From Symbiodinium sp. CCMP2592 (Eukaryota; Sar; Dinophyceae; Suessiales; Symbiodiniaceae): a stretch of DNA of 64,000 nt. How positions within the stretch are numbered: position 1 is the stretch's first letter; the number at the start of each line of letters is the position of its first letter. Below, piece after piece: positions 15,365 to 52,219 of this stretch. Where the stretch lies: positions 1,215,920 through 1,279,919 of the forward strand of contig CAJNDT010006124.1 in the NCBI GenBank assembly GCA_905221615.1, written 5' to 3'. The notes below the pieces were generated by a model. That model ran no database searches. It saw nothing but the letters and a program-made list of their open reading frames with translations, and was not told the origin of the DNA. A program made the translations under genes and the position numbers.

Positions 15365-16699
15365 ATGTCATCGCTTAACGTGGAAGTTTCACTGCTGAGT
15401 GGCAAGACGGCTACTCTGCAAGCAGACCTGGAAGAAGAGGTGAACATGTTGCAACTTCGAGCGCAGTCCGCCCTTGGTGTCGCGAAAGGGCGGCTGGTGG
15501 ACTCGTGTGGAAACACTCTGGATGCTTGTGCATTGGTCAAGAACTCCAGGTTGCAGAATGGGGATTCGCTTACCCTACACATATCTAAAGTCCACGTGTG
15601 CGGCAATAATGCAGCTTTTGCTGCGATTCTTGGAGATGCATCCGTCGTGACATGGGGTCATGCTGGCGCAGGTGGTAGCAGTAGCGCTGTGCAGGATAAG
15701 CTGCGGAAAGTGCAGCAGATCCAAGCCTCTGCCATGGCTTTTGCTGCAGTTCTTGATGACGGATCCGTTGTGACCTGGGGTAATGCTAGCTTTGGTGGTG
15801 CCTGTAGTGCTGTGCAGTCTCGGCTTCAGAACGTGCAGCAGATTCACGCTTCTTCCGGCGCTTTTGCTGCCATTCTTGGTGATGGCTCTGTTGCCACCTG
15901 GGGTGATGATGAGTGTGGGGCTGACAGCTACGATGTGCGAGATCTGCTGAAGAATGTGCGGCAGATCCAAGCCTCCGACGTGGCTTTTGCTGCCATTCTT
16001 GATGATGGATCGGTCGTGACATGGGGGGAACCTGAGGGTGGCGGCGCCAGCAGTGCTGTGCAGGATCAGCTCAGGAATGTGCAGCAGATCCAAGCCACTC
16101 GACAAGCTTTTGCCGCCGTCCTTCACGATGGATCTGTTGTGACCTGGGGTGCTGCTCCTTTAGGTGGCGACAGCCGAGCTGTGCAGCATCAGCTGAAGAA
16201 AGTCAAGCAGCTTAGGGCCTCGGGCAGTGCTTTTGCTGCCGTTCTTGACAGCCGATCTGTCGTGACCTGGGGAAAACCGGACGATGGTGGCGACAGTAGT
16301 GCCATGCAAGATAAGCTGCAGAATGTGCAGCAGGTCCAAGCCACCAGCTTTGCCTTCGCTGCCATTCTTGGCGATGGAAGCGTCGTGACCTGGGGTTTTC
16401 ATTCCCGCGGCGGCGACAGCAGTGCTGTGCAGCATCAGCTAAGGAACGTCCAGCAGATCAAAGGCTCCGACTGCTCCTTTGCAGCCATTCTGGACGATGG
16501 TTCAGTCGTGACCTGGGGTGATGCTGGTTATGGTGGTGACAGTAGTGCTGTGCAGGATCAGCTGAAGAATGTGCATCAGATCCAAGCCGGTCGCTTTGCT
16601 TTTGCCGCCATTCTTGGCAATGGCTCTGTTGTCACCTGGGGTGATGCTCGCCACGGTGGTGACAGCAGTGCGTTGCACAATCAGCTGAGGACTGCGTAG
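15365..16699 (+). CDS. Ubiquitin-like plus RCC1-like repeat protein, copy 1 (444 aa, intronless)
   Basis: Residues 4-75 read as a ubiquitin-like domain (VEVSLLSGKTATLQADLEEE, then LQNGDSLTLHI). Nine repeats of 45-50 residues follow with core 'FAAILxDGSVVTWG' and linker 'GGDSSAVQDQLKNVQQIQAS', which should form a beta-propeller of the RCC1 type. RCC1-fold proteins act as exchange factors or, with a HECT domain, as ubiquitin ligases. No HECT domain, membrane segment or signal peptide is present, so a scaffold or sensor role is more likely, and this is inference. I start at ATG 15365 because the domain begins there; the open frame runs only five codons further upstream and has no earlier ATG. 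The last repeat stops soon after its VTWG motif. Very similar to the gene at 50386. Confidence 0.88.
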   Translation: MSSLNVEVSLLSGKTATLQADLEEEVNMLQLRAQSALGVAKGRLVDSCGNTLDACALVKNSRLQNGDSLTLHISKVHVCGNNAAFAAILGDASVVTWGHAGAGGSSSAVQDKLRKVQQIQASAMAFAAVLDDGSVVTWGNASFGGACSAVQSRLQNVQQIHASSGAFAAILGDGSVATWGDDECGADSYDVRDLLKNVRQIQASDVAFAAILDDGSVVTWGEPEGGGASSAVQDQLRNVQQIQATRQAFAAVLHDGSVVTWGAAPLGGDSRAVQHQLKKVKQLRASGSAFAAVLDSRSVVTWGKPDDGGDSSAMQDKLQNVQQVQATSFAFAAILGDGSVVTWGFHSRGGDSSAVQHQLRNVQQIKGSDCSFAAILDDGSVVTWGDAGYGGDSSAVQDQLKNVHQIQAGRFAFAAILGNGSVVTWGDARHGGDSSALHNQLRTA

Positions 16700-30174: not shown

Positions 30175-30283
30175 ATTACTTAGGGGTACTTAGGATTTGT
30201 TTTTAATTTTTTGGTTATTATAATCCCTAAGAAACAGCTATTTTTTAAAATTTTTGGTAGGGTTCTAAGTTGAGTATAGATTA
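30175..30283. mobile_element. 101-bp introner-type element, second copy, with ATTA duplication
   Basis: The element proper is 30179-30279 (101 bp), beginning CTTAGGGGTACTTAGGATTT and ending GTTGAGTATAG, flanked by ATTA at 30175-30178 and 30280-30283. It aligns along its full length with the insertion inside the RCC1-like gene at 50456-50556, including the shared core TTTTTTGGTTATTATAATCC. No clear host exon pair is seen here. Confidence 0.8.
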
Positions 30284-43830: not shown

Positions 43831-43879
43831 AGTGTGTCAGTTAGTATGGCGTTCTGCCCACAACCCCCCCGTGCTGCAG

Positions 43880-44140
43880 GAGAAGCAAGATGAACCGGCA
43901 GAAGCGAAGGAAGAGGAGAAGAACAACGAACCAGGGGAAGCGTCCAAGGAGAAGAAAGAAGAGACCATGGAAGAGAAAAAGGAGGAGAAGAAAGAAGAGG
44001 CAAAGGAGGAGCGGCAGGAGGACAAAAGAGACGAGATGGAGGTCACGGAGCAGAAGCCCTCGGAGGCAAGCGCCCCAAAGCCAGAGGATAAGACGGAAGT
44101 CAAGCCTGAAGAAGATGCAAAGCAGGACAGCGGGAGCCCT
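43880..44140 (+). CDS. Lysine/glutamate-rich exon (87 codons, partial gene)
   Basis: CTGCAG|GAG acceptor and a CCT|GTTTCG donor bound an 87-codon phase 0/0 exon. It is almost wholly Glu, Lys, Ala and Pro ([20 protein letters not shown], then a run of [14 protein letters not shown]). Such a segment would form a highly charged helix or a disordered region. It lies downstream of the EF-hand exons on the same strand and may be part of the same gene. The Lys/Glu bias could also come from an expanded GARGAR tract. Confidence 0.5.
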
Positions 44141-44461
44141 GTTTCGGCTCAGCGGTTAAAGTTTCAGTATATATTGTTTAGGGTTGAGACTTTGGGTAGA
44201 GGATGGTTTGGTGTTAGAGGATTAGGTACGGAGGATCCGAAGAAAGGGTTGCGGGCCGTGGGTTTAGGCTTTAGGGTTTTTTTGCGGGGGGTTCCTTGAC
44301 GATTTGGCTCACAAGGCTTCTGGGCTTCGAAAATTTCGTGAGTGCAGGGTGCCAGGCTTTCCGCGGGTCGTCTTCGGACTTATAGGGTTAGCAGGAGTGC
44401 ATTAACGAATTCACTGAGCCGGGGAAATGGGAGCCTGCGCTCATGTCATCATGCGTAGCTA

Positions 44462-50385: not shown

Positions 50386-51966
50386 ATGTCGATCACTGTT
50401 GAGGTTGGCCTGCTCAGCGGCAGGACTGCTTCTGTGACAGTAGACTTGGATGACACTTAGGCGTACTTAGAAATATTTTTTTAATTTTTTGGTTATTATA
50501 ATCCCTAAGATACAGCTAAAATCTTAATTTTTGCTAGGGTTATAAGTTCAGTATAGGACAAGGTGGCAGCATTGAAAACTCGCGCAGAGTCGCTCCTCGG
50601 AGTTGGGACAGGGCGACTGCTCGACTCATCCGGGGGCCTTCTCGATGCAAACGTGCAAATCAAGACTATCAGCTTGCAGAATGGTGATTCGCTGACATTG
50701 CATGTGAGCAGAGTTCAGGCCTGTGGCAATAAGTCCTCTGTGGCCGCCATTCTTAGTGATGGAACTGTTGCGACGTGGGGTGCTTCCGACTGTGGTGGTG
50801 ACAGTAGTTATGTGCGGGCTCAGCTGAAGAATGTGCAGCAGATCCAGGCCTCTGGCAAGGCTTTTGCTGCAATTCTTGGCGATGGATCTGTCGTGACCTG
50901 GGGTCATGAGGCCAAGGGTGGTGACAGTAGTGCCGTGCAGCCTCAGCTGAAGAATGTACAGCAGGTCCAAGCCACTGAACACGCTTTCGCTGCGATTCTT
51001 GGCAACGGATCCGTCGTGACCTGGGGCGACAGATTGTTCGATGGTATAGGTGGTACCTGGCGCCGGGATCAGCTCAAAAATGTGCAACACATTCAAGCCA
51101 CAGCGTGCGCTTTTGCGGCCATTCTTGCTGATGGACTTGTGGTAACCTGGGGACTTTCTAGTTATGGTGGCGATAGCAGTGCTGTGCAGGATCAGCTGAA
51201 GAATGTGCAGCAGATCCAATCTTCTTACCATGCTTTTGCTGCCATCTTGAGCGATGGATCCGTCGTGACCTGGGGTGATGCTGGCTGCGGCGGAGACAGT
51301 AGTTCTGTGCAGGATCAGCTGAAGAATGTCGAGCAGATCCAAGCTAATGACTTCGCGTTTGCTGCCATTCTTGCTGATGGATCTGTCGTAACTTGGGGTC
51401 GTGCGGACGATGGCGGAGACAGTAGTGCCGTGCAGGCTCAGCTAACGAATGTACGACAGATCCAAGCCTCCCGCCATGCCTTTGCTGCTCTTCTGGGCAC
51501 TGGATCTCTCGTGACCTGGGGCCGTTTTGGCTACGGGGCTGCTGCTGTGCGGGATCTAGTGAATCCACTGGAGAATGTGCAGCAGATCCAAGCCACTGAC
51601 TTTGCCTTTGCTGCGATTCTTGCCAATGGATCCGTAGTGACTTGGGGTGATGCTCGCTATGGAGGCGACAGTAGTGCTATTCAGGGTCGGCTGAACAGTG
51701 TGCAGCAGATCCAAGCCTCTTCCAGTGCTTTTGCGGCCATTCTTGGTGACGGATCCGTGGCTACCTGGGGTAATGCTACCAGTGGTGGTGCAAGCAGCAA
51801 TGTGCAAGATCAGTTGAAGAATGTGCAGCAGATCCAAGCGTCTTCCAATGCATTTGCTGCCACTACTGCTGATGGATCTGTCGTGACCTGGGGTTCTGAT
51901 CTTGGCGAGGTTTTGGGCAGACCATCAGCACGACGGGCACAACCGGAGTTCTGTGTTTGTGTTTGA
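50386..51966 (+). CDS. Ubiquitin-like plus RCC1-like repeat protein, copy 2 (491 aa), one element-derived intron
   Basis: Exons 50386-50451 and 50557-51966. The first exon (MSITVEVGLLSGRTASVTVD) and the start of the second (DKVAALKTRAESLLGV) together make the same ubiquitin-like domain as the gene at 15365. Joining at a GA donor and an AG|G acceptor gives identical domain length with no frame change. Ten RCC1-like repeats of about 45-50 residues follow (FAAILxDGSVVTWGDA, then GGDSSAVQDQLKNVQQIQAS), predicting a beta-propeller. No HECT or other catalytic domain is present. The last repeat is followed by a short unrelated tail (LGRPSARRAQPEFCVCV). The intron is the 101-bp element plus one copy of its target duplication. 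Function is unknown; by family, protein binding or exchange-factor activity is possible. Confidence 0.88.
50452..50560. mobile_element. 101-bp introner-type element with GACA duplication inside a coding exon
   Basis: The element 50456-50556 starts CTTAGGCGTACTTAGAAATA and ends GTTCAGTATAG. GACA stands on both sides (50452-50455 and 50557-50560). The ends are imperfect inverted repeats (ACTTA-A in both arms). The element brings an in-frame TAG at 50458, so the gene works only if it is spliced out. Using the duplicated GACA, intron 50452-50556 has GA...AG borders and leaves GAT|GAC AAG GTG. Confidence 0.88.
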
Positions 51967-52109
51967 GCTCTATTGGCCGTCCGTGGGTTTCAGCAGGTCA
52001 ACCGTCACCTGCCTGCAACGTTGCCACGCCCGTATCCTGCAGTTGCAAAGTACGTCGGTGTGCTGGGCAAAAATTCTGCAGTGCCTCTGTTTTACAAGCA
52101 TGCACTCAT

Positions 52110-52219
52110 GGGTGGTTGTCAAAATTATGATCCTTTTTTGGGTCCCTAGTATAGTACGGCACCTAGTATTTAGGGTACCCAAAAAAAGGACCATAATTTT
52201 GAAATTTTGACAACCACCC
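52110..52219. repeat. Inverted-repeat element, family GGGTRGTTGTCAAAAT
   Basis: GGGTGGTTGTCAAAATTATG pairs with CATAATTTTG...TTTTGACAACCACCC; 10 bp near the right arm are duplicated. Confidence 0.85.

Follow-up and report, generated by a model that had tools for sequence, protein, structure and literature searches.

A putative MITE-type introner in a ubiquitin–RCC1-type gene of Symbiodinium sp. CCMP2592, with a 5' splice site most likely supplied by the target duplication

We describe a short element that interrupts the ubiquitin-like domain of an RCC1-type gene within a stretch of 64,000 nucleotides from the genome of Symbiodinium sp. CCMP2592 (the window; all positions are given on its forward strand unless a strand or locus is named), and we consider it very probable that the best explanation is a MITE-type introner whose donor comes from the target duplication, so that the window copy would be spliced out. 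Most probably the 5' splice site comes from the duplication (GA–AG here) and the 3' AG from the element, as suggested by the GA and GT starts of the duplications beside those copies that lie in coding exons. Introners are among the leading explanations of bursts in intron gain, and a young, numerous family in one genome, with duplications that can still be read, makes the step from insertion to intron countable, both in the share of exonic insertions that have a usable donor and in whether the remainder are lost. The window copy, for which the same genome holds many uninterrupted paralogues, is a clean case, and the countable link between duplication and survival in exons is the part worth following.

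The insertion and the interrupted gene

The gene (RCC1-like copy 2) is read from an ATG at 50386 to 51966, and the insert sits within its ubiquitin-like domain, the order at the site being GAT|GACA (50452–50455), the element CTTAGG...GTATAG (50456–50556, 101 bp), GACA (50557–50560) and AGGTGG. The initial annotation had described a 101-bp insert with GACA on both sides and an in-frame TAG, and the window sequence bears this out: with the insert left in, the frame reads DT*AYLEIFF*FFGYYNP*..., the TAG being the third codon counted from 50452 and further stops following it. Its claim that removal of one GACA together with the element restores an open frame holds equally, and deletion of 50452–50556 gives an open frame of 491 aa with zero internal stops. 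The element is AT-rich (CTTAGGCGTACTTAG...AAGTTCAGTATAG) and MITE-like, with closely similar copies elsewhere; alignment of the consensus ends places imperfect terminal inverted repeats at 50456–50472 (forward strand) and 50540–50556 (reverse strand). The left GACA, an exact repeat of the right, would carry the 5' splice site in its GA, the element would form the intron body, its end TATAG carrying the 3' splice site AG, and the right GACA would begin the downstream exon and give the acceptor AG|G. Five cuts yield an identical mRNA and, as read from the sequence, only the cut at the first base of GACA gives an intron ending in AG. Donors inside the element were rejected, as cuts leaving GACACTTAG in the exon run into the in-frame TAG.

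The first coding segment (MSITVEV...DLD, 50386–50451) holds the N-terminal part of the ubiquitin-like domain and the sole ATG of the frame, and the second (50557–51966, with the stop at 51964–51966) holds the remainder of that domain and the RCC1 repeats. In Pfam, the excised protein matches RCC1_2 (E 3.4e-32) and, over residues 3–73, ubiquitin (E 0.0011, below Pfam's own cut-off). RCC1 repeats are present in all three proteins compared (excised copy 2, the post-insert frame, and RCC1-like copy 1, an uninterrupted paralogue with an empty site at 15365–16699), and Pfam gives no ubiquitin match in the post-insert frame or in copy 1; the match in the excised protein is weak support because copy 1, though uninterrupted, lacks one too. 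Between copy 1 and excised copy 2 the ubiquitin-like part has dN 0.35 and dS 1.26. The earlier statement that excision gives a domain of the same length as in this paralogue needs a small correction; by hand alignment the paralogue is one residue longer near the N-terminus, away from the join, and downstream of that residue the lengths agree. Elsewhere in the window, a lysine/glutamate-rich frame at 43832–44296 has a weak Pfam match to presenilin (E 0.0026, below Pfam's cut-off), which is probably an effect of composition.

The N-terminus of the excised protein matches Symbiodiniaceae proteins beginning MSITVEVGLLSGK. When it was compared with 120 listed relatives of the 2129 found, 82 of the 120 had an N-terminal hit, 68 extended 8 residues or more past the join in both directions, and 67 of these 68 were gapless within 8 residues of it; relatives with organism names are mostly Symbiodiniaceae. 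Within the same genome, a search with the excised 147-aa N-terminus gave 6002 first-look candidates (150 scored, 151 matches reported), and the ubiquitin–RCC1 gene family looks enormous here. Of the matches listed, all but the window copy extend from residue 1–3 to at least 138 without a stop, at 57–68% identity; the match to the window copy begins late, at residue 17, and contains a stop (TAG). These uninterrupted relatives and paralogues at the site argue that the gene is old and was uninterrupted, and that the insertion is new.

The element family and its copies in coding exons

That the insert is a transposon copy, as had been proposed, is confirmed by a search of the genome (1.098 Gb, 5383 contigs), in which further copies make up a family with 4-bp duplications and inverted ends. 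With the window copy as bait there were 2076 first-look candidates, of which the best 40 were scored and are 87–94% identical to it (excluding the window copy itself); a second family copy in the window (30179–30279) gave 1204 and the consensus 2210, 40 of each being scored. This second copy is 85% identical to the window copy and is flanked by the duplication ATTA/ATTA, with no coding context shown. The 88 hits read resolved into 74 distinct copies, 72 of them full-length with enough flank, in a sample picked by similarity. An exact 4-bp duplication is present in 51 of the 72 full copies; for the first 44 the figure is 32, far above chance, 1000 shuffles having given 1.2 on average and never more than 6. 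The duplications are AT-rich, and their fourth base prefers A. The consensus is 100 bp long, its outer ends are CT...AG, and its ends pair as imperfect inverted repeats at 11 of 17 positions, 8 of them consecutive (ACTTAGAA). Mean substitution from the consensus is 3.3% (44 copies, picked for similarity), and the element is young; the window copy differs by seven substitutions and one gap, two of these eight differences being private among the 44 copies.

A target duplication of fixed length (4 bp) and terminal inverted repeats, here imperfect, are the marks of MITEs and TIR DNA transposons, and on these features the family is MITE-like; its copy number is high. Six full non-bait copies occur in 274 kb of fetched, partly overlapping loci, and two copies in the 64-kb window, which suggests some tens of thousands of copies genome-wide, a rough figure from a biased sample. 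A scan of viral contigs with an inner 23-mer of the element gave 0 matches. The first half of the consensus (50456–50508 in the window copy) is itself a small inverted repeat (CTTAGGG...CCCTAAG), from which the element may be composite. Near position 531 of locus L033, a full copy beside a GC-rich open frame of 140 codons has flanks that do not match (CATC/ATGA), which may mark a deletion or rearrangement at insertion.

The 72 copies were ranked according to the open frame that crosses the excised join, and four of them, in unrelated genes, are backed by relatives that run through the join, namely the window copy and those at L049, L055 and L060. At L055 (GAAA), proteins P0121 (95% identical; located on a 2163-base contig that could be cDNA or DNA) and P0122 (90%) cross the join without a gap; at L060 (GTTT on the left, GTTC on the right) all 32 of 32 hits do so, several bearing MMETSP transcript names, as do 2 of 2 at L049 (GTTC). 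In all four the intron would start with GA or GT and end AG|G, and the element is sense to the gene. Exon context is shown for 4 of the 72 sampled copies, in a sample drawn by similarity, of which a subset was tested without gene annotation. Near-identical elements at unrelated exonic sites, empty sites, and boundaries that could serve splicing and would restore the frame are what characterizes introners. The scoring of family copies by exon context, which the initial annotation had suggested, gave four supported cases and two picks that failed. One of these, L032 (near 503), carries GACC as an exact duplication, with 131 aa in frame through the excised join, and a search for its relatives found none; it was also rejected as a duplicate of the RCC1 gene with the same insertion, the flank agreeing at 11 of 12 bases only and the translation differing. 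The other, L070 (GTTC), has a single relative, which diverges at the join. The L070 copy lies (near 1504) shortly past an apparent exon end, and that at L029 (near 510) about 20 codons before a stretch whose motif resembles a DnaJ J-domain; both copies may be just inside existing introns. A Pfam search of five copies' excised frames yielded no match below E 0.06.

Duplication start, exonic position and rival readings

Among the 72 copies, 16 have a duplication that starts G[TCA]. The exonic copies start GA or GT in 4/4 cases, compared with 12 of the 68 others that start G[TCA] (Fisher one-sided p 0.0018; 0.008 without the window copy), a test that is inflated because L060, like L032 and L070, was picked for testing partly by its duplication. 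Independent of that picking is the length of the longest sense frame across the join, which is greater in G[TCA] copies (16 vs 56, p 0.0015; 15 vs 55, p 0.0029, without both window copies). By thresholds, the excess is weak at 80 aa or more (7/16 vs 13/56, p 0.099), with p 0.026 at 100 aa, 0.012 at 120 and 0.020 at 140. Frames on the antisense strand of the G[TCA] copies are not longer (p 0.11), and no sense-frame excess is seen for A or T as the first base of the duplication (p 0.74 and 0.99); with C as the first base, sense frames are again longer (n=3 copies, p 0.026). Antisense use of the element gained no support, frames on the other strand being no longer for the duplications that would serve in that direction (9 vs 61 copies, p 0.24).

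Among non-G copies, 33 have a usable sense frame, and 12 of these were searched against the genome; their self matches stop at or soon after the join, or continue into the element with stops, and other matches are mostly repeat-like with stops. L045 (ACTA) has three stop-free matches across the join, and L058 (TTTA) one, at 42% identity and also over a seam between two query pieces; these matches are apparently dispersed repeats. Pfam on 859 aa of non-G frames gave nothing at E 0.1. Translated phrases such as WVVVKIMxxFWVP and LLGGSWGLVS, which recur at 51902–52210 (downstream of RCC1-like copy 2) and beside several family copies (L066, L058 and others), are another dispersed repeat. Taken together, the link between duplication start and exonic position is a good association, though not proof.

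These results bear on a simpler reading, in which a plain transposon insertion disabled a single gene of a large family and restoration of the frame on paper is trivial. Subtracting one duplicate and the element always restores the site, the loss of one copy is cheap where the family has 6002 first-look candidates, and the element is young, so no further damage need have accumulated; about 0.44 stops per 1% neutral divergence are expected in the 467-codon frame that is open downstream of the insert, and its intactness is weak evidence because the element is young. A neutral insertion would not, however, explain the excess of donor-capable duplications in exonic copies (the picking of which was partly biased), and for the genes at L055 and L060 the searches gave far fewer relatives (13 proteins and 32), with frames open on both sides, for which we judge this reading unlikely.

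That the upstream ATG segment is untranslated and the protein begins downstream of the insert would accord with the 467-codon frame open past it, but there is no ATG or M in that frame after the insert or join, and related proteins match at their start the 22 residues that precede the insert, which leaves a downstream start highly improbable. We give scarcely any credence to programmed DNA removal of the kind that acts on the internal eliminated sequences of ciliates: the insert is short, AT-rich and exactly bounded between direct repeats, yet 4/4 exonic copies start G[TA] and end AG|G, the splice-site rule of the clade, and we know of no DNA elimination in dinoflagellates.

Proposed origin and relation to known introners

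The initial annotation had held that dinoflagellates tolerate GC and GA donors, and this is correct for three Symbiodiniaceae genomes, in which donors are GT in 23.6–36.6%, GC in 43.6–58% and GA in 17.4–19.8%, and AGG acceptors make up 96.1–97.1% (PMC10666404, Table 2). The table shows different values for other dinoflagellates, such as 0.1% GA donors in Amphidinium gibbosum. Since GA is found in 17–20% and AGG in 96–97% in those three genomes, the putative GA donor and AGG acceptor of the window copy would be ordinary sites by their rates.

In the introner reading that we favour, a short non-autonomous DNA transposon would have inserted in an intronless RCC1-type gene and duplicated GACA, with the transposase presumably provided from elsewhere. 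The left duplicate would then supply the 5' splice site (GA here), the element the 3' AG, and the first G of the right duplicate would complete the AG|G acceptor, for which GACA fits. The CT...AG at both element ends could in principle allow use as an intron in either direction. Exonic copies without a donor-capable duplication would be lost to selection. The earlier proposal that the duplication supplies the donor thus gains from the family, from the empty sites, from three more exonic copies and from donor-capable duplications in 4/4 of these copies, and on such sequence grounds the window copy would be spliced. Its further proposal, that an intron is born in the same step as the insertion, is possible where the duplication has G followed by T, C or A (16/72), and not for the rest. 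We are evenly divided over a broader view, in which the MITE would be a latent intron and intron birth a lottery decided by two target bases (won in about one-fifth of insertions), with selection clearing the losers from exons, perhaps tens of thousands of copies lying probably mostly outside exons, and the first base of the duplication serving both as the donor G and as the G of the AG|G acceptor. If this were true, the rate of intron gain would be predictable from target-site preference alone.

The mechanism and the host group are already published, and what the window copy adds is a clear new instance, not a new principle. In the introner elements of Aureococcus and Micromonas, described by Huff et al. 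in 2016, transposon insertion with target duplication reportedly creates an intron at once; those introners are said to differ from the window family in host, ends and duplication length. As had been stated at the outset, introners are reported from dinoflagellate genomes (PMC9860276; PMC7789003; PMC11453091). In Farhat et al. (2021; PMC7789003), the introner elements of Amoebophrya resemble the window family in their dinoflagellate lineage, inverted repeats and direct repeats of 3–5 nt at intron edges, whereas Amoebophrya introns have highly varied splice sites and the exonic copies here have G[TA]...AG|G. Polarella glacialis, too, is a dinoflagellate with recent introner insertions, in many families (Roy et al., 2023, as summarized in a review, PMC11453091), and the sections of PMC10522408 on dinoflagellate introners offer nothing further beyond PMC7789003 and PMC11453091. 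By its description, the likeness is closest to introner family 1 of S. microadriaticum (published example spanning 86725–86839, 115 bp), where introners have 4-bp duplications and inverted repeats, the element carrying the 3' splice site and the duplication giving the 5' splice site (PMC9860276; Gozashti, 2022, Fig. 2B legend). The same source gives GA donor shares of up to 40% in introner families and enrichment of introners in genes in 161 of 175 genomes, to be set against an exon context in 4 of 72 copies here, of which a subset was tested.
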